This document shows, piece by piece, positions 29,604-42,809 of a DNA stretch of 64,000 nt. A program made the translations under genes and the position numbers. The stretch spans positions 156,346-220,345 of the forward strand of contig CAIZWN010000083.1 in the NCBI GenBank assembly GCA_903936705.1, in the 5' to 3' direction. Numbering within the stretch: position 1 is the first letter of the stretch; each line of letters starts with the position of its first letter. Below the pieces are notes generated by a model. It made no database searches, was not told where the DNA came from, and saw only the letters and a program-made list of their open reading frames with translations. The stretch is from an uncultured Myxococcales bacterium (GTDB lineage: Bacteria; Myxococcota_A; UBA9042; DTJE01).

Positions 29604-31535
29604 GTGACTTCCAGGTTCCCGTTCGTATCGCTTGTTCTTGTTCTGGCTGCCGGTGGATGCGGGGCAGGTGGCGGCCACGGGTCGGACGACCTGCTCGATG
29701 CGCGGGATGCAGGCGCTGACGGTGAAATTTTGGCGGACGTCCCAGACACCAGGGATTTCATTGACGGCCGCGATCAGCCAGAAGAATCGACCGAAGTCCT
29801 GGATGTTCGGTCCGATGCAGCAGCCGATGTACCGGACGCTGCCGTGCCTGATCCCGCTTTCAGGCGCATCGACCTGACTGCCGTCGGAGATGTCATGGGC
29901 ATGTGGTCGGCGCCTGGCGGGACCGCTTGGGCCGTGGGTAAGGCCGGACTGGTGCTTCGGTCCGATGGCGACGCATTCCTCCCGGTATTTCCAAGGCCTC
30001 CTGGTGATGCGGATCTGTTCGGCATATCGGGTGATGGCGACACGATATTCGTTGTCGGGGCTGGCGGCGTCGTCATGCGGCTCAATCCCGTCGACGGCTG
30101 GACGGTGTTGCGCCAGGCCGACGGGTCAGACCTTTACGGCGTGTCGGCAGTTTCGGCAACCGAGGCGTGGATGGTAGGGAAGGGCGGTCGGATCCTGAAA
30201 TTCAAGGATGGCGAATTTACCGCCGAGACTACCGGCATTACCCATGATTTATATGGAATCAACGCATCGGCAGCAGGCGGCGTAAGGGCGGTTGGTGCGT
30301 TTGGTACGCTTCTCGAACGTGGATCGGCGGCCTGGGTTCGATCGGATATCGCAGGCCCGGCCACGACGCTGCGCGCCATCTGGCGCGCTCCCGACGGACG
30401 GATGGTTGCCGTCGGAAGTCGCGGTTCCGTCGCCCTTTTCGATGGCATGACATGGTTGCTGCAGGTTACGAACGATCCCGAGGAACCGGGGCGAGATCTT
30501 TTTGCAATCGGCGGGACGGCATCGAACGACGTTACGGCCGTAGGTGATCGGGGGGCGCTGGTGCACTTCGACGGCGAGCGTTGGTCCATGATGACCGTGG
30601 CCGGTCCATATAACGGACAGGCCGATTTGCGGGGTATCGCGTCGAGGATCGGGTCAGCCGGGAAAGCTGTTTCAGTAGCTGCCGGCCTGGGGTCGACAGC
30701 CTTGGAGTTGCAGGACGATGCCTGGTATGACCGTATGCTGGGGGTCACGACGGACCTGCGCGGAGTCGCCGTGGACGGCGGAGGATCCCTGGTCATTGTC
30801 GGTGCGGGCGGGTTGATCCTTCGCGGTCCAGCCGATCGCCTGGGCGCCATCAGGCAATCGGTACCGGGGGCTTTGAACGCCGTGTCCCTGCCATGGGTCG
30901 TTGGCGATGGTGGCGCGGTGGTCGATCTGTCCGGAGAATTCCCAACCCTGCTTTCGGCGTCTACCGACGAGGACCTTCTGGACGTGTGGGCCGACAAGGG
31001 CGGTGCCTGGATTGTAGGCGCGCGCGGCTCGGTGTTCCGCCTTGCCGCAGGCGCGTTGACCCTGAACGCCAGCAGATCCTCGCCCTTGTACGCCACGTGT
31101 TCAGACGGCGAAATGGTGTGGATAGCGGGCGATGGCGGCATCGTTGAAGTGGATGCCGGCGAAGGTTTTCGGGCGCTGACCTCGGGCACGTCGTCAACTT
31201 TGCGGGATATGATGCCGCTGGCCGGTGGAGGTGTGGTGGTGGCCGGGGACCACGGCCTGATCCTTGAGTGTGACGTGTCAGGTTGCCAGCGCGTGGTGGA
31301 AGAGCCCGGGACATTCTTATACGGGCTGGGCGACATGGCCGGCAGCGGCATGGCGGTGGGGTGGGCTGGCACGGTGCTGCGGCGCGCCTCAGGTGGCGGC
31401 TGGTACCACCTTGATTCGGGGACGAAACGGGTGTTCAACGCGGTCGCAGGTTCTGCCGATGGGACCTTCGCTGCCCTGGCCGGGTCGGACGGCGTATTGT
31501 TCATATACTCCAACGCTGCGGTGACCGCCGAATGA
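29604..31535 (+). CDS. Beta-propeller-like lipoprotein with Asp-rich linker
   Basis: 643 residues; GTG start preceded by GAGGGGTAAGCCA. Signal peptide ends at lipobox AAGGC, then an Asp-rich linker (about 25-80). The body is built of roughly a dozen repeats near 40 residues long of the form DLxGVS...AVGxxGxVLRxDG..W, as in YCF48/BNR-type propellers (for example IFVVGAGGVVMRL, AWMVGKGGRILKF, WIVGARGSVFRLA). Only two cysteines appear late in the chain. Its TGA overlaps the ATG of the next gene, so the two are coupled. Function unknown; a surface binding scaffold is plausible. Confidence 0.82.
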   Translation: MTSRFPFVSLVLVLAAGGCGAGGGHGSDDLLDARDAGADGEILADVPDTRDFIDGRDQPEESTEVLDVRSDAAADVPDAAVPDPAFRRIDLTAVGDVMGMWSAPGGTAWAVGKAGLVLRSDGDAFLPVFPRPPGDADLFGISGDGDTIFVVGAGGVVMRLNPVDGWTVLRQADGSDLYGVSAVSATEAWMVGKGGRILKFKDGEFTAETTGITHDLYGINASAAGGVRAVGAFGTLLERGSAAWVRSDIAGPATTLRAIWRAPDGRMVAVGSRGSVALFDGMTWLLQVTNDPEEPGRDLFAIGGTASNDVTAVGDRGALVHFDGERWSMMTVAGPYNGQADLRGIASRIGSAGKAVSVAAGLGSTALELQDDAWYDRMLGVTTDLRGVAVDGGGSLVIVGAGGLILRGPADRLGAIRQSVPGALNAVSLPWVVGDGGAVVDLSGEFPTLLSASTDEDLLDVWADKGGAWIVGARGSVFRLAAGALTLNASRSSPLYATCSDGEMVWIAGDGGIVEVDAGEGFRALTSGTSSTLRDMMPLAGGGVVVAGDHGLILECDVSGCQRVVEEPGTFLYGLGDMAGSGMAVGWAGTVLRRASGGGWYHLDSGTKRVFNAVAGSADGTFAALAGSDGVLFIYSNAAVTAE

Positions 31536-32884
31536 CCCTCCACTTCCCGCTGTCACTGTTTCTTGCAGGCCTTCTGTTCCCGGTAATGGCGATATCGCAA
31601 GTGGCAAGGGTGCCTGTTCCGCCACCTCCGCCGTTTGTGGCCCGGTTCCTGTCGCAGGACGAGGCATCGATCGTTGCCGTGAGGATCCTTGGTGCCAGGT
31701 CAAATGTCGTGACCCGGGAGCCGAAAGGATTCGCCTTCGAGACTGACGGGTTTCGCGACGGGCGCCTCTGTCCTCTGGAAGGCGCCAGGGACCTGCGTTG
31801 CGGTTCGTTCGCTTTCAGCCCGTCACGTGTGTTCGTGTTCGGGCAGGTGCTTTCCGGCGCCATCTCGGGGCATCTTGGCCAGAATCTTCTTGTTCGAGTC
31901 GAGATGCTTTCTGACGAGGCAACCGTCGCCTTCGGTACTCTCCACGGTGTTCTGGTATTCTCCGGACCTACGGTGGATCCAGGCGATCACCCTGCTTTTG
32001 CCTGGTATCCCGGTCGCGATGCGCATGCCCTGTCGGTAGACCTTCTGGACGTGGATCGCGACGGCACCCTGGATGTCATCTATACCTATTCCCAGCGATT
32101 GCCCGGTGGGCGCAGGGTCGTGGCGCGTGACGTGTGGACGTTCGTGGGGCTGAAGGCCGAAAAACTGATTTCATCGGGGGAAAAACTGTCGGGAGTCGGC
32201 ACCAGCACCTTCGACGGCGTGCCGTTGCACGAGGACGGTCCCGATATGGCCGTCAGGGGACAGTTTCGGTTTGAACCTATGGTCCCGGGCAAGCCACTCG
32301 CAGGCGTGTTCGAGCGTGCTCGCCTGGCCGGGATGGGTTCCGGATGGGACCTGCGCCTGATTGCCGACCTGGGCGACGGTTGGCGCGAAGTTCTGGCAGG
32401 AACTGGCCCTCAGGAAAACGAGGATTCTGAAACAGCGGCCGAGTCCTCGTGCCATCCTGCCGATGTGCCGGTTGATGCTGATGTCGGCGTACGCCGTCGT
32501 CTGCTGGACATCGAGACTGCATGCAGGGCAGTCCTGATCGCATTTTCGGATGCGCGGACGCCTCCCTGGCGCGCCCCGCTCCGACTGTGGGTCTCGTTGG
32601 GACTGTCGGCAGTGGGCCTGCCAATGGCAGCCTTGAGCCTGCGCGAGCGGGTCGCGAACGACATCGCCGCGATTTCTCCTCGGGCGTGGTTGGTGGCGGC
32701 AATATTGTCGGTGTCGGCCGCCTTGCCGGCCGATTGCGCATTGGCAGATGCCCTTGGCCCCGGTTCCGCCGCACGGCGCTGGGACGCCCTGGATGCCTTC
32801 CAGGTTCTGTGGCCGCTGACACAGCCAGTCAACTGGATGCTGCGTCTGTTGTGGATCCTGGAATCCTGGTTGATGCCGAATTGA
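31532..32884 (+). CDS. Exported protein with FG-GAP-like motif and C-terminal hydrophobic segments
   Basis: 450 residues, start ATG overlapping the preceding stop (ATGA). An N-terminal signal peptide (LSLFLAGLLFPVMA) is followed by a Pro run (PPPPP) and a beta-rich region containing LDVDRDGTLDVIYTY, an FG-GAP/calcium-loop-like stretch. The C-terminal quarter has three hydrophobic segments (near LGLSAVGLPMAAL, WLVAAILSVSAALPA and WMLRLLWILESW), so the protein is probably anchored by its C-terminus. No family was recognised. Coupling with the propeller lipoprotein suggests a common surface complex. Confidence 0.75.
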   Translation: MTLHFPLSLFLAGLLFPVMAISQVARVPVPPPPPFVARFLSQDEASIVAVRILGARSNVVTREPKGFAFETDGFRDGRLCPLEGARDLRCGSFAFSPSRVFVFGQVLSGAISGHLGQNLLVRVEMLSDEATVAFGTLHGVLVFSGPTVDPGDHPAFAWYPGRDAHALSVDLLDVDRDGTLDVIYTYSQRLPGGRRVVARDVWTFVGLKAEKLISSGEKLSGVGTSTFDGVPLHEDGPDMAVRGQFRFEPMVPGKPLAGVFERARLAGMGSGWDLRLIADLGDGWREVLAGTGPQENEDSETAAESSCHPADVPVDADVGVRRRLLDIETACRAVLIAFSDARTPPWRAPLRLWVSLGLSAVGLPMAALSLRERVANDIAAISPRAWLVAAILSVSAALPADCALADALGPGSAARRWDALDAFQVLWPLTQPVNWMLRLLWILESWLMPN

Positions 32885-34304: not shown

Positions 34305-35966
34305 ATGCAACTCGGGCGGTTTGACTTCCCTGGTCTGGTTGCGATTTGTACGAGCCTCTTGTTGTCAGTCGGGTTGGCGGCATGCAGAACCGGCGGGTCA
34401 GCATCGGCAGACGATCTTCCGGTAGTGTTTCTCGATACCCACCATGCGGATATCTCCCGGACCGATACGGCAGCGGACGGGGGCGATGCCGGCCGCGACC
34501 AGGGCCACGAGGGTGATGCCGTGTTCGATACAGTGGCTGACGAGGGTGCGGATCCATTGACGGTGCTGGATGTTGCAGACGACCCAGGACCGTTCGACCA
34601 GGGACCATCGGATCCTGGCAGCCACGATCCGGGACTGGATCCCGGGGCGTCGGATCCTGGCGCGGAAGCGGCCGGTTGCGGTACCGGACCGGCATGTGCC
34701 CAGGGGACAACATGTATCAACGCGATTTGCGAGTCCTGCCGGTTCCAGTTTGCTTGCGGCCAGGATTGCGTGGAATGCACGGGTACTGCCACACCGTTTT
34801 GCCTGGACGGCAGTTGCGTGCGTTGCCGGGTCGGCTCGGACTGTGCGGACGGGTTCTGGTGTGACGGGGCGACACACGCCTGCCGGCAATGCGGCGTGGA
34901 TGACCCGGTACATTGCGGTGCTGAATGCAAGACCTGCCCGGCCGACCTGCCGGTGTGCCTGGGCGGTGCCTGCCTGTGCAACCAGACGTCCTGCGGCGCC
35001 CTGTTCTGCGTGGAAGGGGCCTGTCAGGGCTGCGACAACGACCTGGCTTGTGGACCGTCCTGCGCTGCCTGTCCGATTGAAACCCCGCGGTGCGTTGGAG
35101 GGACCTGCCTGACCTGCCGTGATCCGGGCGACTGCCCCGCGGACCAGTGGTGCAGCGCTGGAACCTGCAGACCGTGCACTGCAGACGACCCGGCACACTG
35201 CGGTTCTGCTTGTGTCAAATGCAGCGGGGACATGCCGGCGTGTTCGGCAGGTTCTTGTGTTTGCGATGGATTTTCATGTGGAGAGGGACGTCGCTGCACG
35301 GCCGGTACCTGCGAGAACTGCAACCTTGACGAGGCCTGCGGCCCTGCTTGTGTGAAGTGCGAAGGCGCAACCAAGTTCTGCATTTCCGGTTCGTGCCGAC
35401 AGTGCCGCAGCGCCACCGACTGCCCGGCAGACTGGGCCTGCGGTGCCGACGGCGCATGCATTGACCCGTGCGCTGGCACGCTGGGCTGTGCGAACGATTT
35501 TGCACCGGATGGCAGGAAATGCGGCACCGCCCGAGTGCTGGGGCGCACCGTCCTGAACGCCGGGACCACGGTTGCCGGGGACACTACCGACGAAGGAAAC
35601 GATGACGACCTGCCGTCTATTGGAGGTCCCGATTGCTGGGATGCCGTCGATGACGTCATGTACAAGGTCTGGATGCGGAACGGGGACACGATTCGGGTCA
35701 CCGCCGATCCCATCCCATCGGTATTCGACTTGTCGCTGAAGCTGTATCGAGGTACGACCTGCAAGAGCGCCTGGAAGACCGACTTGATCGTCTGCCAGCA
35801 CGCCGGTTCCAGTGGCGCACCCGAGTCGGTCCAGTATACGGCGACCGCCGACGGTTGGCTGACGATCGTGGTAGATGGCGAGTCCGGGACGGACATAGAC
35901 GATTTTGGCCCGTTCAGCATGACGGCCAGCCTGGCCTGTGCCGATACCGGCTGCTGTTGCCGCTGA
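34305..35966 (+). CDS. Cys-rich lipoprotein with C-terminal PPC-like domain
   Basis: 553 residues from ATG 34305. Signal peptide ends in lipobox GLAAC, followed by a long Asp/Pro/Gly linker (about 25-125) with DPG repeats. Residues ~128-420 hold some 55-60 cysteines in short units such as CxxGxCxxCRxxxDCPADxWC and HCGxxCxxC, probably all disulfide-bonded. The last ~130 residues form a beta domain with DDVMYKVWMRNGDTIRVTAD and FDLSLKLYRGTTC, resembling bacterial pre-peptidase C-terminal domains, and the chain ends in CCCR. Surface adhesin or matrix role is a guess. Composition resembles the insertion in the permease at 41040. Confidence 0.82.
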   Translation: MQLGRFDFPGLVAICTSLLLSVGLAACRTGGSASADDLPVVFLDTHHADISRTDTAADGGDAGRDQGHEGDAVFDTVADEGADPLTVLDVADDPGPFDQGPSDPGSHDPGLDPGASDPGAEAAGCGTGPACAQGTTCINAICESCRFQFACGQDCVECTGTATPFCLDGSCVRCRVGSDCADGFWCDGATHACRQCGVDDPVHCGAECKTCPADLPVCLGGACLCNQTSCGALFCVEGACQGCDNDLACGPSCAACPIETPRCVGGTCLTCRDPGDCPADQWCSAGTCRPCTADDPAHCGSACVKCSGDMPACSAGSCVCDGFSCGEGRRCTAGTCENCNLDEACGPACVKCEGATKFCISGSCRQCRSATDCPADWACGADGACIDPCAGTLGCANDFAPDGRKCGTARVLGRTVLNAGTTVAGDTTDEGNDDDLPSIGGPDCWDAVDDVMYKVWMRNGDTIRVTADPIPSVFDLSLKLYRGTTCKSAWKTDLIVCQHAGSSGAPESVQYTATADGWLTIVVDGESGTDIDDFGPFSMTASLACADTGCCCR

Positions 35967-36053: not shown

Positions 36054-37067
36054 TCAACGCCGCAGCACCTGTGCCTGCACGAAGTCGTCGCCCAGTTCCT
36101 TCTTCAGGAACTCGCGGAACTGCTTCTTGATTCGTTCTTCCAGTTGGCGGGAGCGCTCGCGGCTGACACCGAACTTCTCGCCGACCTCCTGCAGGGTCAC
36201 GGGGTCGTCGGACAGCAGCCGTTTTTCCCAGATATAGCGGTCGCGCTCGGATTCGATTCCCTTGCCAAACTCGGCGATCTTCAGTTTCAAGCGCAGGCCG
36301 ACCTCGTTCTGAGCGGTCTCCTCTTCCGGGTTCGAGTTGCCGGCCATGGTGCTGAGGTAGGTGCTCTTGTCGTCGCCGGATCCGCGCGGCGCGTCGAGGT
36401 ACAGGTCGGGCTGGTCCATGCGCTCCATCATCTCCTTCACCGTGTCCTCCGGGACGGACAGGTTCTGGGCGATCAGGCGCGCAGTGGGGTCGAAGCCCAT
36501 GTTGATCAGGCGCTGGCGCTCGCGGCGCAGGTTGAAAAATATCTTCCGCTGGGCCTGGGTGGTCCCCAGCTTCACCATCCTGTGGTTGTTCAACAGGTAG
36601 TAGATGATGTACGACCTGATCCAGTACTGGGCATAGTGCGACAGGCGGACGCCACGCAGCGGATCATAGTGGTTCACCGCCTGCACCAGACCAATGTTAC
36701 CCTCCTGTATCAAATCAAGTACTTGTGACGTGAAGGTTCTGTATTCCATCGCGATCTTGATGACCAACCGCAGGTTCGCGGAAATCAGGTGAGACCCCAC
36801 CTTGGGGTCTTTCGTGGTCGCAAACTGGCGGGTAAGTCGCAGTTCCTCCTCGGGGGTCAGCAGCGGATGCCTCTGTATGTCTCGGATGTACCTGTACAGC
36901 AGATCAACGCGGGTTTCGCTGCCACCTGACGTGGCCGGAAGCCGTGAGTTTATGACCGGCTCCATCGCCGTATCGACAGCTTCCTCGTCCGGTCTTGGTG
37001 CGTCTTCCTGGGTTTCGTCGTCGGACAAGGTGTCTCCCTTGTTGGCAGTAGATTCTTGCGACGTCAT
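36054..37067 (-). CDS. rpoH: RNA polymerase sigma-32 family factor
   Basis: Heat-shock type sigma factor of 337 residues from ATG 37067. Region 1.2/2.1 reads YIRDIQRHPLLTPEEELRLTRQF, and region 2 contains DLIQEGNIGLVQAVNHYDP and LSHYAQYWIRSYIIYYLLNNHRMVKLG. The RpoH box is visible as QRKIFFNLRRERQRL, which separates it from RpoD. Region 4 ends with VTLQEVGEKFGVSRERSRQLEERI, a helix-turn-helix for the -35 element. An acidic N-terminal extension of ~50 residues precedes the core. It starts 23 bases after degP and is probably transcribed from the sigma-32-like promoter upstream of degP. Confidence 0.92.
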   Translation of the reverse strand: MTSQESTANKGDTLSDDETQEDAPRPDEEAVDTAMEPVINSRLPATSGGSETRVDLLYRYIRDIQRHPLLTPEEELRLTRQFATTKDPKVGSHLISANLRLVIKIAMEYRTFTSQVLDLIQEGNIGLVQAVNHYDPLRGVRLSHYAQYWIRSYIIYYLLNNHRMVKLGTTQAQRKIFFNLRRERQRLINMGFDPTARLIAQNLSVPEDTVKEMMERMDQPDLYLDAPRGSGDDKSTYLSTMAGNSNPEEETAQNEVGLRLKLKIAEFGKGIESERDRYIWEKRLLSDDPVTLQEVGEKFGVSRERSRQLEERIKKQFREFLKKELGDDFVQAQVLRR

Positions 37068-37090
37068 GATACGCCGCGGGTGCCGGATGG

Positions 37091-38677
37091 TCAACGCGAA
37101 GGGCTGCCCTTGCGACCACGTTGGGGGGGCTCGCTGTTCTGCCCAGACTGGTCCGGCCCGGGCTTCTTGACCACGACGTAGAAGAAGTTCTGGCCCCTCA
37201 GCAGCAGCAGGAGGATCGAATCGCCGGGTTTGATCTTCGACACAGCGTCGGCGAACTCGGCTGGCGAACCTACGGGTGCGCGATTGACCTCCATCACGAC
37301 GTCCCCGGGTCTGACGCCGGTGTTTGCCGCGGCGCCCTCGGAATCGACATCCTCGACCTTCACGCCCTGTCCTCGTTTCAGTTGTAGGCGTTCGGTATCC
37401 TTCGTAGTCAGAGGGGCCAATTCCAGACCCAGATTCGATTGAAGTGAACCGCTGTCGTCGCTTGAGTCGAGACCATCCTTGCGCTCGAACGCGCCTCCCT
37501 TTTCGTCTCGCTCGACCACCCGGACTTTCAGGATTGTGTCGCGGCCGTCGCGTACCACCTTGAGATCATAGTCGCGGTCCGTTTCCGACAGCCCGACGGT
37601 TCTGGTCAGGCCGGCAGAGTCCTGTATGGGCTTGCCAGCAAACGAGATGACCACGTCCCCGCGCCGCACGCCTGCCTTCTCGGCCGGGCTGCCCGGGAAG
37701 ACCTGCGACACAATCACGCCCTGGCGGTCGCCAAGACCCATGCCCTGTGCAAGTTCCGGGGTCAGTTCCTGGATGCCTACGCCCAGCCAACCGCGGCTGA
37801 CCCGCCCCTTCTGCAGGACGTCGCGAATGAACTGCTTGGCCATGTTGACAGGTACCGCGAACCCGATGCCCTGCGCCGCGGCGTGGATGGCGGTGTTGAT
37901 TCCGACGACGTTTCCCGAGGCGTCGAACAAAGGGCCCCCGGAATTACCTGGGTTGATGCTGGCGTCCGTCTGGATGAAGTCGTCAAACGGTCCAGCGCCG
38001 ATAACGCGGTCCTTGGCCGACACGATGCCGGCTGTGACCGTGTGCGCGAGACCGAACGGGCTGCCGATGGCGATTACCCAGTCGCCGACCTCCAGCAAGT
38101 CCGAGTCACCCAGCAACGCGACCGGCAGGGGTTCCTTCGAGTCCACCTTTATCAGTGCGAGGTCGTACTTCTCGTCGCGACCCACGATCTTGGCCTTGAG
38201 TTCGCGCTCGGGTTCAGTCAGGCGCACATTGATCTCGGTGGCGCCTTCGACTACGTGGTTGTTTGTCAGGATGTACCCCTCGGCGTTGACAATAAAGCCG
38301 GAACCCAGCGAGTTGCGCCGTTGGGCCGGGACGTCCATTCCTTCACGGTCACCGAAAAAGTGGCGGAACATGTCATCCATGGGATCCCGGGAATCTCTCT
38401 GCCCGCCACCCGGATTCCGCCGGAATGATTTGTGTCCCTGGACCTCGATCGAAGTCGCGATGTTGACTACGCTTGGTTGGAGGCGTTTCACGAGGGGCGC
38501 AAACGAGCGGGCCGGCTGGAAATCAGGACCCACCGCAGGTGCCACCGGGGCGCTGTCCGACCAGATCTTCCACTGCTTTTCGATGGCGGCCGGACTTTCG
38601 GACGGTCGGCAGAACGTGACGAGACCCAGGAGCATCGTGCCACCGGTAATGGCGGCAATCTTAACGAGGCGGCTCAT
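37091..38677 (-). CDS. degP: Periplasmic serine protease of the Do/HtrA family
   Basis: 528-residue envelope protease-chaperone. ATG 38677 follows GGAGGATCTG. A signal peptide is followed by a trypsin-like domain with catalytic His near 140 (TNNHVV), Asp near 171 (YDLALIKV) and Ser near 245 (NPGNSGGPLFD). Two PDZ domains follow, with carboxylate-binding loops seen in RGWLGVGIQEL and SNLGLELAPL. The C-terminus is basic (RGRKGSPSR). In an operon with rpoH, which suggests the heat-shock sigma factor controls envelope proteolysis directly. Confidence 0.95.
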   Translation of the reverse strand: MSRLVKIAAITGGTMLLGLVTFCRPSESPAAIEKQWKIWSDSAPVAPAVGPDFQPARSFAPLVKRLQPSVVNIATSIEVQGHKSFRRNPGGGQRDSRDPMDDMFRHFFGDREGMDVPAQRRNSLGSGFIVNAEGYILTNNHVVEGATEINVRLTEPERELKAKIVGRDEKYDLALIKVDSKEPLPVALLGDSDLLEVGDWVIAIGSPFGLAHTVTAGIVSAKDRVIGAGPFDDFIQTDASINPGNSGGPLFDASGNVVGINTAIHAAAQGIGFAVPVNMAKQFIRDVLQKGRVSRGWLGVGIQELTPELAQGMGLGDRQGVIVSQVFPGSPAEKAGVRRGDVVISFAGKPIQDSAGLTRTVGLSETDRDYDLKVVRDGRDTILKVRVVERDEKGGAFERKDGLDSSDDSGSLQSNLGLELAPLTTKDTERLQLKRGQGVKVEDVDSEGAAANTGVRPGDVVMEVNRAPVGSPAEFADAVSKIKPGDSILLLLLRGQNFFYVVVKKPGPDQSGQNSEPPQRGRKGSPSR

Positions 38678-38738
38678 CAGATCCTCCGTATTGGCAATGT
38701 GCGCCGGGGACCGGCGACGCCCCATGGCAACCCGAATG

Positions 38739-38765
38739 ATGGGGTTGTATTCCCCCCGGGGCAAG
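38739..38765 (-). promoter_or_regulatory. Sigma-32-like promoter of degP-rpoH
   Basis: On the minus strand CTTGCCC (38759-38765), a 14-base spacer and CCCCAT followed by CAT (-10 core 38739-38744) resemble the heat-shock consensus CTTGAAA-N13/14-CCCCATNT. The degP ATG is 62 bases downstream. It implies that RpoH drives its own operon. Confidence 0.6.
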
Positions 38766-38847
38766 AGGCTGGCGTCCAACCTGACGGCCTTGTGCTAATC
38801 TCGCCCGCACCGGGGTGCCTGGTGAAAGGTTGGGGGGTTGATTCCAG

Positions 38848-40332
38848 GTGAAAAGGACTGCTTGTCCAGCGGTGGTCGCGTCGCTGTTCGTTCTTGCAGC
38901 ATGCGCCGGGCCGCGTCTGGATCCTGTGCGGGCGCTGCCGGTTGATGTCGATGCGATTGCAGTGCTGCGGCCGGCAGGAGATCTGGCCGATCGGACGACG
39001 GCATTGTTCCAGCGATTGCCCGAGGCGGTCGGGGCGGCAGACCTTCTGCGTTCGGTTACCGGGTTCGACCTGCGTTCCGCCGAAGCGACCCGCCAGCAGG
39101 GGCTGGACCCGCAGCGTTCGCTGGCCATAGCCTGGTGGAAGGGCGCCTTGGTGGTGGCGATTCCGGTCGACGATCGGGATATCGCATCGCGGCGTCTGGG
39201 ACTGAGGATGGCGCGCCTTGGATTCGTGGAGGAAACGACCGGCGAAACCCAGATCCGCCGTTTCCATGACCTGCGCGACAAGGGGCGTGGTGCCCTGCTG
39301 CGGGTGGATAAGGACGTTGCGCTGGCCTGTGTCGGCCCGACGAAGTCGTGCGCCGGCCTTCAGACGCTTGCACCTGCTGCTGCGGGCGGTGGTGCCGGTG
39401 ATCTGGCTGTGGCGGCGGCGGTTGAGGCTGGCCTGGCCGATGGTGACCTGTCTGTATGGGTTGGCAACGACCTGCTTATGGCGCTGGCCAAGCGGCAGTT
39501 CGGCCTGGTGCCGCCCGGCGGGGCGGCTGGCATCCTCCTGCGAGCCGCCATCGGGGATTTGCGTCTGGTTGCCTCGTTGGACCAGGGGCTTCAGGTCCGG
39601 GCAGTTTTCGGGCCAAATGGCGACCCGCTGGCTTGCCCGTCGGCCCCCGCCACGCTGCAGTCCGGCGTTCTGGCGCGAGCCGACGTGGACCTGGGGTCGC
39701 TGCCGGACGGTCTGATGAACGGCTTGCTGGACGCCTGTGGCCCTGCTTGTCGTGCCGATGGCCTTGGCGATACGTCGGCTATTCTGAAGGCATGGGATGG
39801 CCGTGCAACCGTCGCGCTTCTTGTTGCCAGTGACCCTGCTGCCGGTCCAGTGACCGGAGTGCGTGCGTTCCTGCGCCGTGCGGTGGCCGTCGCGGGGGCC
39901 GGATTGCGCCCCTCGAATGGAGCCAGCGTGGGGCTATCGGCAGCGGCGCTTCTGGCCTCCAGACTTGGGGTATCAACGCTTCCATGGGCTGACAGTGATC
40001 TCGAGGGACTGGCCGGAGTTGCCCAGGACGGTCTTGAGGTGGCTGCGGCGACCAGGGGCGACATCCTGGTTGGCGCAGCAGGCCGCGGTGCCGAGGCTGC
40101 CGGGAGGAATCTGGCCCTGGGTCGCCTGGCTGGGCTTGCCGGGGTGCCGCCGGTGCTGGCCTCCGGGAAACTGGTTCGTGTTGCAGTCGATCCCAGCGGA
40201 TGGGTTGAGGCTTTGGGCGGTCTTGGGATCGAATTCGTGCGGCACCTGGCATCGGCGGTGCGGATTGTCGGGGTCGAGGCGTCACTTGCGGACGGGCGCC
40301 TGACTGTTGATGCGATCATCCGGTTGCGGTGA
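38848..40332 (+). CDS. Lipoprotein of unknown function in an ABC transporter operon
   Basis: 494 residues from GTG 38848. Lipobox LAAC with Ala at +2 predicts outer-membrane anchoring. The mature protein is Ala/Gly/Leu-rich with alternating hydrophobic helices and strands and opens with VDVDAIAVLRPAGDL. It resembles DUF3352-like bacterial proteins in composition, but I cannot confirm the family. Four cysteines lie in the middle. It is followed after 7 bases by the ABC ATPase gene and then the permease, so it is probably the lipoprotein partner or cargo of that transporter. Confidence 0.75.
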   Translation: MKRTACPAVVASLFVLAACAGPRLDPVRALPVDVDAIAVLRPAGDLADRTTALFQRLPEAVGAADLLRSVTGFDLRSAEATRQQGLDPQRSLAIAWWKGALVVAIPVDDRDIASRRLGLRMARLGFVEETTGETQIRRFHDLRDKGRGALLRVDKDVALACVGPTKSCAGLQTLAPAAAGGGAGDLAVAAAVEAGLADGDLSVWVGNDLLMALAKRQFGLVPPGGAAGILLRAAIGDLRLVASLDQGLQVRAVFGPNGDPLACPSAPATLQSGVLARADVDLGSLPDGLMNGLLDACGPACRADGLGDTSAILKAWDGRATVALLVASDPAAGPVTGVRAFLRRAVAVAGAGLRPSNGASVGLSAAALLASRLGVSTLPWADSDLEGLAGVAQDGLEVAAATRGDILVGAAGRGAEAAGRNLALGRLAGLAGVPPVLASGKLVRVAVDPSGWVEALGGLGIEFVRHLASAVRIVGVEASLADGRLTVDAIIRLR

Positions 40333-40339
40333 GGAAGTC

Positions 40340-41032
40340 TTGATTCGCGTGGAACATCTTGTGAAGGCGTACCCTGGTCAGGCTGCTGGCGATGCTGCCC
40401 GTGTTTTGCCGCCGGCACTGTCGGACGTGTCTCTGTCGGTTGCCAGGGGCGAATTCCTGGCCGTTGTGGGTCGATCCGGTTCCGGAAAGACCACGCTTCT
40501 GAATATTCTCGGCGGACTTGACAGGGAATGGACGGGCCGGGTCGAGGTGAACGGGCAGGACCTTGCCCGCCTGCATGATCGCGATCTTTCGATGCTGCGT
40601 AACAAGACGATTGGTTTCGTGTTCCAGGCATTCCATCTGCTGCCGCACCTGACTGTAATCGAGAACGTGACGCTTCCAGCCTGGTTTGGCAACCAGGACC
40701 GTGACCGGGCCGAGGCTGAAGGGCGTGCCATGCAGGCGCTGGATCGCGTCGGTCTGGCAAACCGGGCCACCGACCGGCCGACTCGGCTGTCGGCGGGAGA
40801 GCGGCAGCGTGTCGCGGTTGCCAGGGCGCTGCTGAACCGGCCGATGCTGCTGTTGTGCGACGAACCTACCGGTAATCTCGATGCGGCAACAGGCGCAGCG
40901 GTGCTGGACATCTTTCTGGAACTGAACCGCAGGGACAATACGACACTGGTCATCGCGACGCACGAGTCCAGGGTCAGCGAGGCAGCGAGCCGGCAGATAG
41001 TCCTTGAGACCGGCCGGATCGTGGAGGCATAG
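40340..41032 (+). CDS. ABC transporter ATP-binding protein (LolD/MacB-like)
   Basis: 230-residue ATPase. The TTG start at 40340 is preceded by GAGGAAG; upstream in-frame codons overlap the lipoprotein gene. Walker A GRSGSGKTT, Q-loop FVFQAFHLLPHLTVIENV, signature LSAGERQRVAVARALL and Walker B LLLCDEPTGNLD are all intact. The signature reads LSAGE in place of the usual LSGGQ, as in some LolD proteins. The length and the VEHLVKAYPG opening fit the LolD/MacB/FtsE group. It forms an operon with the lipoprotein upstream and the permease 7 bases downstream. Confidence 0.92.
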   Translation: MIRVEHLVKAYPGQAAGDAARVLPPALSDVSLSVARGEFLAVVGRSGSGKTTLLNILGGLDREWTGRVEVNGQDLARLHDRDLSMLRNKTIGFVFQAFHLLPHLTVIENVTLPAWFGNQDRDRAEAEGRAMQALDRVGLANRATDRPTRLSAGERQRVAVARALLNRPMLLLCDEPTGNLDAATGAAVLDIFLELNRRDNTTLVIATHESRVSEAASRQIVLETGRIVEA

Positions 41033-41039
41033 GCAGCAG

Positions 41040-42809
41040 ATGACTGCGCGGGCACAAGTCGGCCTGATTGCACGCTTCCTGGTGCGCAGCAGGGGGCATT
41101 TCGCCTTTGCGCTGGTCGGTCTGGTGGTCGGCAGCGCCACGCTGGCATTTTTCCTGGCCCTGTCCCTTGGCATCCGCGAACGGGTACTGAACCGGTTGTA
41201 CCCCGTCAATCAGGCCGAGTTGCAGATTGAAACGGTGCGCCTGTTCGGGCTGGGGATCGAGGTGCCGTCACGCCTGGACCAGGCATCGCTGGCTGCGCTG
41301 AGGTCCCTGCCTGGAGTGACCGGCGTCTATCCCAAGCAGCGCTCTCGATTCCAGGCGCGATTATGGGGCGGACGCGAGGTAATCGGGCATGAGGCCCGCG
41401 TCGAATCCTTCTTCGATGGGCTGGAACCCGAGTTGCTTGGCAACGAGTTGCGACTTTCCGAGGCCGAGGTGCTTGGTCCCGAGATGGGTGCCGTGATCTG
41501 TTCGGCTGATGCCGATTGCGGGATTGGCGGTCGTTGTAACGAAGGTGCCTGCCACAGGCGCGTCTGGTGGGACTCCTTCCGCGACCCAGGCGGAAGACTT
41601 CCGTGCCGTGCGGATTCGGGCTGCCTGCCAGGGCAGGCCTGTTTCGATGGCCAGTGCATGATTTCGTGCGCCGAACCGTGCACGGCCGGCGCAGCCTGCA
41701 TCCAGGGGGCTTGTCTGCGAACCTGCACCGGGAATGCGTCCTGCGACCCCGGGGAAACCTGTGTGCAAGCGGCAGCCCTAGGCGTTTGCCGGCGACTGGC
41801 CTGTCGCCTGGACGACCCACGCGACGGGGCTGGCGACGATCCCGAAAAAATCCGCGGGCGCCTGACTTCGCGTGCTGGCATGCCAACACCTGGAGGCGGC
41901 GAAAGGTGTCCCGATGGTACCTACTGTGCGACCGATAACATCCTGACGGCGTCCGGCGCCTGCGAGGCGCCAATCCCGGTCCTGGTCTCGCCGTTCCTGC
42001 TGGAGGTCTACAACCGTGTCGCGGCCACGGCGCTTGACTTGCGTCGCCTGTCGGGCCTTGAAGTGCTGCTTGGCGTGTCGTTTGCGATGTTGTACGGCGA
42101 GTCGTATTTCGTCGCCGACGCTGCGTTCGATCAACGCACGATCAGGCGATGTCGTATTGTGGGCTTCTCGCAGAAGGCCATGGATTTCGGTGTAACGATG
42201 CCTCTGGCTGCCGTCCAGAGGGCCAACGCGATGCTGCGTGGACGTGATGCTGCCTCCGAATTTACTAGTGTCGTGCTGACGACCGCCAGAAACGAGCAGC
42301 TTCCTCAGGTTATCGAGGACGCGAAGATTCTTGGCCTTGTACCGGCGCCGCGCAGCGAGGACGCGCGCAAGGCATCCAGCATGCTGCTGGTCCTTACCCT
42401 GGTGTTTGCACTGGTCAGTCTGGTGATACTGGGTATTTCGGCCATCAACATCACCCACACGTTCCTGATGCTGGTGACCGAGCGCCGCATCGAGATTGCG
42501 GTCTATCGTGCGGTGGGCGCCCGGCTGCTGGATGTGCGCATGCTGGTCCTGGGCGAAGCGGCCGTCATGGGAGCGATCGGCGGGATTGCTGGCTGCGCGG
42601 GTGCATGGGTTTTGGGCCGCCTGGTGAATGTGGGGGCCAGCCGCGTGCTGGGCGGAGTTCCTGGTATGCCAGCGGATTTGTTCCTGTTTTCACCAGTCGT
42701 ATTGCTGGTTGGATTCTCGTGCGCGGTGCTGTTTGCCGTGATCGGGGCGTGGGTTCCATCCGGCCGTGCTGCGCGAACCGACCCCGCAACGGTCCTTACC
42801 CAGGGCTGA
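41040..42809 (+). CDS. LolC/E or MacB-type permease with a 20-cysteine periplasmic insertion
   Basis: 589 residues. One N-terminal membrane helix (about 20-45) is followed by a large periplasmic domain and three C-terminal helices within an FtsX-like core (LVLTLVFALVSLVILGISAIN and VTERRIEIAVYRAVGARLLDV). That is the type VII ABC permease topology of LolCE and MacB. Between residues 154 and 308 the periplasmic domain contains 20 cysteines in motifs such as DADCGIGGRCNEGAC and SGCLPGQACFDGQC, like those in the window's surface lipoproteins. I know of no such insertion in characterised LolC, LolE or MacB. Probably acts on lipoproteins; substrate unproven. Confidence 0.85.
   Translation: MTARAQVGLIARFLVRSRGHFAFALVGLVVGSATLAFFLALSLGIRERVLNRLYPVNQAELQIETVRLFGLGIEVPSRLDQASLAALRSLPGVTGVYPKQRSRFQARLWGGREVIGHEARVESFFDGLEPELLGNELRLSEAEVLGPEMGAVICSADADCGIGGRCNEGACHRRVWWDSFRDPGGRLPCRADSGCLPGQACFDGQCMISCAEPCTAGAACIQGACLRTCTGNASCDPGETCVQAAALGVCRRLACRLDDPRDGAGDDPEKIRGRLTSRAGMPTPGGGERCPDGTYCATDNILTASGACEAPIPVLVSPFLLEVYNRVAATALDLRRLSGLEVLLGVSFAMLYGESYFVADAAFDQRTIRRCRIVGFSQKAMDFGVTMPLAAVQRANAMLRGRDAASEFTSVVLTTARNEQLPQVIEDAKILGLVPAPRSEDARKASSMLLVLTLVFALVSLVILGISAINITHTFLMLVTERRIEIAVYRAVGARLLDVRMLVLGEAAVMGAIGGIAGCAGAWVLGRLVNVGASRVLGGVPGMPADLFLFSPVVLLVGFSCAVLFAVIGAWVPSGRAARTDPATVLTQG

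Follow-up and report, generated by a model that had tools for sequence, protein, structure and literature searches.

What a LolCDE- or MacB-like transporter would do with a dense block of cysteines in its periplasmic domain, and whether such a block belongs to one bacterial lineage, are the questions raised by a permease gene in a 64,000-nucleotide stretch of DNA from an uncultured Myxococcales bacterium that belongs to a poorly known Myxococcota group (the whole stretch is hereafter called the window). Known members of the LolCDE/MacB class transport lipoproteins, drugs or cell-wall enzymes. A sequence-only reading of the window had considered the cysteine block a placement made by this lineage, and had proposed that it perhaps recognises Cys-rich lipoprotein cargo or a periplasmic partner.

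A type VII ABC permease with five four-cysteine units

The permease gene (41040-42809, plus strand) starts 7 bases past the stop codon of an ABC ATPase gene, and its frame of 589 aa contains no internal stop. The C-terminal part of the protein (residues 458-582; 42411-42785, plus strand) matches the FtsX-like permease C-terminal domain PF02687 (E = 1.1e-15; 58.2 bits, above the Pfam cut-off of 25.5), and MacB_PCD was detected in 50 of 58 permease homologues. An AlphaFold2 model built with 58 sequences (pLDDT 92.2, pTM 0.84) was used for a Foldseek search, which returned LolE, MacB, LolC and YtrF, each with a probability of 1.00 (E = 5e-17 for LolE and 2e-15 for MacB). In the model, a helix at residues 18-53 is followed by a domain and by helices at residues 437-481, 496-537 and 552-578, giving the topology TM1, periplasmic domain and TM2 to TM4. 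The permease is accordingly modelled as a four-TM protein of the type VII ABC fold (LolC/LolE/MacB), and the Pfam and Foldseek results agree with its earlier assignment to the LolCE/MacB type. The window genome has a single copy of this permease, and the other FtsX-type permeases examined in it are cysteine-poor (0 to 5 Cys per frame).

Twenty of the 23 cysteines lie within residues 154-308 (41499-41963, plus strand), exactly as the sequence-only reading had stated; the other three are at residues 371, 519 and 561. They form five tandem groups of four with one CxxGxxC motif per group (five motifs against 0.33 expected in shuffles of the same residues; p = 5e-5), which also confirms the description of the insert as short CxxGxxC-like units. 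On the plus strand, unit A (41499-41552; Cys 154, 160, 166 and 171), which lies upstream of an ancestral F-x-D motif, is followed by unit B (41604-41657; Cys 189, 195, 201 and 206), unit C (41667-41714; Cys 210, 214, 220 and 225), unit D (41724-41789; Cys 229, 235, 241 and 250) and unit E (41802-41963; Cys 255, 290, 296 and 308). Unit E contains the sequence CPxGTYC, and its C290, C296 and C308 are nearly invariant in the homologue alignment. The AlphaFold2 model has one beta-hairpin for every four-cysteine unit, with pLDDT values in the insert mostly between 85 and 96 and a dip to 75 around residues 281-290.

The insert is bounded in the model by a helix (residues 130-145) and a strand (312-316), and on either side of the middle region there are beta-alpha-beta elements (residues 58-101 and 410-435). 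The periplasmic domain of MacB has the order Porter-Sabre-Porter, with two Porter halves around the Sabre (PMC5985334). Since the flanking beta-alpha-beta elements parallel these Porter halves, the insert is most likely located in the Sabre subdomain, a placement based on the order of secondary structures and not on superposition. Characterised LolC, LolE and MacB have no such insertion in the periplasmic domain, as had been claimed.

Two genomes of the same genus encode the same 20-Cys insert (75-76% identity), and the permease was matched in 52 of the 53 relatives' genomes searched, so the insert is due neither to chance nor to an assembly error. The latter had been named beforehand as an outcome that would overturn the finding. 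A frameshift is likewise rejected, the frame being open and the insert common to relatives.

A graded series of inserts across Myxococcota

We aligned the permease with homologues from the phylum; the counts and the tree, which was computed without the insert columns, include 94 rows with the window permease among them. The insert site holds 0, 4, 8, 14 or 18-30 cysteines and ranges in length from 8 to about 230 aa. It has about 8 residues and no cysteine in families f14 and f15, about 35-45 residues and 4 Cys in f18, f34 and f36, about 55-70 residues and 8 Cys in f19, f48 and most of f30, about 130 residues and 14 Cys in most of f6, and 145-232 residues and 18-30 Cys in most of the window's family and several others of its class. 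The insert is therefore not unique to the window lineage, and the idea of a lineage-specific placement has to be given up: at this one site the permease family shows a graded series across the phylum, and the window permease represents one point of it.

In the four-cysteine forms, the single unit corresponds to unit E of the window (CPxGTYC...C), and a short F-x-D motif precedes the cysteines. As unit A lies before this motif in the window (WWDSFRD) and units B-E after it, modules were added on both sides. The alignment indicates that a loop present in the insert-less relatives is filled by repeated four-cysteine modules, of which the window has five. The size classes are strongly clustered on the tree, yet at least 11 changes are needed to explain them. 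Two permeases of the window's own family have shrunken inserts, one with 4 Cys in 71 residues (locus L068) and the other with 8 Cys (L072). The CPxGTYC sequence of unit E is kept across the window's class, including L068, where the other units are gone.

The same site has also gained extra sequence in f28 (L096 and L112). In f8 (L053, L124 and L125), inserts of about 220 aa have only 13 Cys and contain an extra Cys-free stretch of about 100 residues that resembles a separate folded domain.

Of 91 inserts, 86 have an even number of cysteines, whereas outside the insert the same proteins have an even number in 40 of 94 cases; these counts come from related sequences that are not independent, and several size classes each show even counts. 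The number is a multiple of four in 62 of the 91 inserts, and five residues separate the second from the third cysteine in 133 of 152 units. Because of the even counts, disulfides are favoured, and the insert cysteines are probably paired in this way. The window genome encodes two VKOR-family proteins.

By the Nei-Gojobori method, dN/dS of the insert was 0.09-0.48 (only for pairs with measurable synonymous change), and its dN exceeded that of the remaining periplasmic domain about 2- to 10-fold. The insert is under purifying selection but changes several times as fast as the domain around it.

The three-gene unit and its genomic context

The permease gene is the last of three. A gene for a DUF3352-related lipoprotein (38848-40332, plus strand; 494 aa, lipobox LAAC) is overlapped at its end by that of a LolD-like ABC ATPase (40307-41032, plus strand, with an ATG at 40310; PF00005, E = 1.6e-34), and the 7-base gap before the permease follows. 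The lipobox supports the earlier naming of the operon partner at 38848 as a lipoprotein, and the pairing is conserved: an iterated profile search of the loci gave 56 homologues, each of them lying immediately upstream on the same strand.

Because the loci had been chosen by the permease, the partner profile was also run against whole genomes. Thirteen of 24 genomes matched; 12 matches were strong, and in all 12 the best match was the operon copy. Among the 12 sampled genomes lacking an operon partner, 11 gave no partner match and one (G059) gave a weak distant match. DUF3352 (PF11832) was matched by 6 of 44 aligned partner homologues (best E = 2.8e-7), the window protein being unmatched. The predicted fold of the partner (pLDDT 91) had no convincing relative in a fold search against solved structures in the PDB, and a literature search on DUF3352 returned no papers. 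The N-terminus of the f6 partner resembles an uncleaved membrane anchor rather than a lipobox, which suggests that the partner works at the inner membrane.

Insert size and partner can be separated in both directions. L068 has a permease with 4 Cys together with the partner, and a Cys insert occurs in the absence of the partner in L075 and L128 (16 Cys) and in the f30 loci (8 Cys). Paired comparisons on the tree showed no association of insert size with partner presence. Dependence of the insert on the DUF3352-related partner is thus not supported, and the insert does not appear to be simply or obviously the partner's binding site.

The flanks of the unit vary between families, and only the three genes themselves are constant. 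Loci of the window's family often have, on one side of the unit, genes for an RpoH-like sigma factor and a protease of the HtrA/DegP type (above cut-off for TIGR02037); in the window these lie at 36054-38779 on the minus strand, divergent from the ABC unit. The other flank has mraZ (by Pfam), rsmH and a penicillin-binding protein gene, the latter two named by sequence only. In f6 (about ten loci, L046-L055 and related), lnt, encoding apolipoprotein N-acyltransferase, is upstream of the unit on the same strand (TIGR00546, 205 bits in L055, above cut-off), as are genes for a pseudouridine synthase and a UDP-GlcNAc-epimerase-like protein, both of which owe their names to sequence alone. The divergent arrangement of sigma factor and protease is retained in most loci of the window's family.

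Comparison with known systems

The ATPase of the unit is most similar to LolD, at 233.5 bits against the LolD model TIGR02211 (cut-off 307.75), and the permease scores 40.3 bits against the LolCE model TIGR02212 (cut-off 362.45) and 16.4 bits against the FtsX model TIGR00439 of FtsEX (cut-off 255); all three scores are below the cut-offs. In the window genome, contig 71 (locus L139) has, in order, lysS, a gene for a LolC/E-like permease (524-aa frame), and the genes for LolD and BamA, and this is presumed to be the housekeeping lipoprotein locus. Its permease (224 bits against TIGR02212) and LolD (284 bits against TIGR02211) are also under the cut-offs, so a shortfall against these models is by itself weak evidence, as a presumed true lol permease misses the cut-off as well. 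Although the LolD-like ATPase and the LolE/LolC fold would suit a role of the unit as the lineage's housekeeping LolCDE, the L139 locus fits the Lol models far better (224 and 284 bits versus 40 and 233), two LolA genes exist in the genome away from the unit, and every score of the unit falls below the Lol cut-offs; we therefore reject such a role as hardly tenable.

The unit shares with LolCDE the whole-length permease fold and topology, a LolD-type ATPase and a location at the membrane and periplasm. It differs in having a single permease gene where LolCDE has both LolC and LolE, a 155-aa Cys insertion and a DUF3352-related operon partner, with the canonical Lol genes elsewhere. At the expected place of the LolA-binding Hook hairpin of LolC, the window permease has a short turn only, as judged from the sequence. 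MacB has the same type VII fold, Porter-Sabre-Porter order and FtsX C-terminal domain. However, the ATPase of MacB is fused to the N-terminus of the permease, whereas that of the window is a separate gene (40307, with the permease at 41040), and the window permease bears the Cys insertion in the Sabre region. A MacA-like adaptor is absent from the window operon, which holds the lipoprotein, ATPase and permease only. In YbbAP-TesA, YbbP has 10 TM helices and the partner is an esterase (PMC12646458), in contrast to the four TM helices and the DUF3352-related, membrane-anchored partner of the window unit.

The short Cys-rich extracytoplasmic repeats of myxobacteria described by TIGR04201 (Myxo_Cys_RPT) occur in TraA of Myxococcus xanthus (PMC3325183). 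This model weakly matches 6 of 58 permeases, and the window insert scores 13.4 bits, below the cut-off of 25. The repeats of TraA are in a surface receptor, whereas the units described here are inside an ABC permease. Fold, ATPase and repeat type are each already known, and the combination is without description in the literature searched; a search on this permease or its Cys insert found no report.

Possible role of the insert

In known type VII ABC systems, ATP moves the periplasmic domains, and partner proteins set the task (PMC12646458, PMC8333309) and define the system (PMC12646458); task-specific adaptation of the Sabre is considered possible (PMC5985334). We give an even chance to the proposal that the unit is a Myxococcota-specific type VII ABC (mechanotransmission) complex whose Sabre carries a rigid, disulfide-rich arm, which probably docks periplasmic partners. 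With a single permease gene, the permease is assumed to be a homodimer with two ATPases, and from its fold and the adjacent ATPase gene, ATP binding and hydrolysis would drive movements of TM1/TM2 and of the periplasmic domains like those in LolCDE and MacB. The modules, if their cysteines are paired as disulfides, would form a compact, rigid arm on the Sabre, and by the logic of the known type VII systems this arm may dock a periplasmic partner. An envelope or lipoprotein context is indicated since the ATPase is closest to LolD and lnt precedes the unit in f6, and the substrate may be a lipid or a lipoprotein. More tentatively, the unit is possibly a distinct type VII ABC system in which permease and ATPase are specific to Myxococcota and have a DUF3352-related, membrane-anchored partner of their own; the disulfide-bonded modules on the Sabre, variable in number, would then be an extensible arm reaching a client in the periplasm or outer membrane, and the task would be unlike those of Lol, Mac, Fts and YbbAP. 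The permeases provide a natural series in which one periplasmic-domain site has 0 to about 7 disulfide modules, with near-deletions within one bacterial family, accompanied by a conserved partner without a convincing solved-structure relative. They also extend, by one uncharacterised system, the envelope machinery of a phylum already noted for its unusual surface proteins.

The wide variation of insert length could also mean tolerance instead of function. The insert might be a surface loop that an easily multiplying module has expanded almost neutrally, with no task beyond folding; the range from 8 to about 230 aa, the losses in one family (L068 and L072), the 11 or more size-class changes on the tree, a dN 2 to 10 times as high as elsewhere in the periplasmic domain and the unrelated extra sequence taken up at the same site by f8 and f28 all suit this explanation. 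We nevertheless consider it somewhat unlikely, given dN/dS values well under 1, the near-strict even parity of the cysteines and the conservation of the CPxGTYC unit E in the window's class, L068 included. It is much less probable that the cysteines act as a redox or metal sensor gating the transporter. Four-Cys units could in principle bind metal, and even counts suit metal sites too, but the spacing is C-x5-C-x5-C and not that of CxxC knuckles, the site is extracytoplasmic in an organism with VKOR-type oxidases, and the number of units varies freely.

The remaining explanation, in which the module recognises Cys-rich lipoprotein cargo and the transporter is a dedicated exporter of that class of surface lipoproteins, draws on the general four-Cys unit type common to permease and lipoproteins, the LolD-like ATPase and the lnt gene adjoining the unit in f6. 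If the insert recognised these lipoproteins, insert size would be expected to rise and fall with their numbers, and genomes that keep them should also keep the insert. The number of strict TIGR04201 hits per Mb did not correlate with insert size in 38 genomes (rho = -0.18, p = 0.27, relatedness uncorrected), although looser Cys-repeat candidates gave a weak positive correlation (rho = +0.34, p = 0.04, also uncorrected for relatedness). Moreover, repeat proteins are numerous in genomes with zero-Cys permeases, with at least 11 hits in G053 and at least 20 in G059 as compared with at least 2 in the window genome, and they are retained (at least 12 hits) in G007, the genome of the near-deletion L068 from the window's family, in which the permease is reduced to 4 Cys; all these numbers are lower bounds, as at most 150 candidates per genome were scored. 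The co-occurrence survey that had been suggested thus gave no consistent signal, the cargo claim finds no consistent support, and we regard this explanation as improbable. Recognition of one particular lipoprotein may still be compatible with the repeat counts.

The Cys-rich lipoprotein of the window itself (34305-35966) has a repeat region that matches NF033759, the model for TraA outer-membrane exchange, at 46.5 bits, far short of the cut-off of 750; a weak PPC-like domain follows this region. Units of the form C-x5-C-x5-C-x4-C are found in both this protein and the permease insert, in line with the earlier view that the two modules are of the same general kind. The gene is not syntenic in relatives: about 1 kb separates the flanking epimerase and sigma-factor genes at locus L056 of the same genus, which leaves no room for it, and its homologues in sister genomes are on other contigs, away from the ABC unit, so a linkage of the unit to this lipoprotein is rejected. 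Elsewhere in the window, two adjacent ORFs without a Pfam match (29604-32884) encode proteins of 643 aa and 450 aa, the former with propeller-like repeats.
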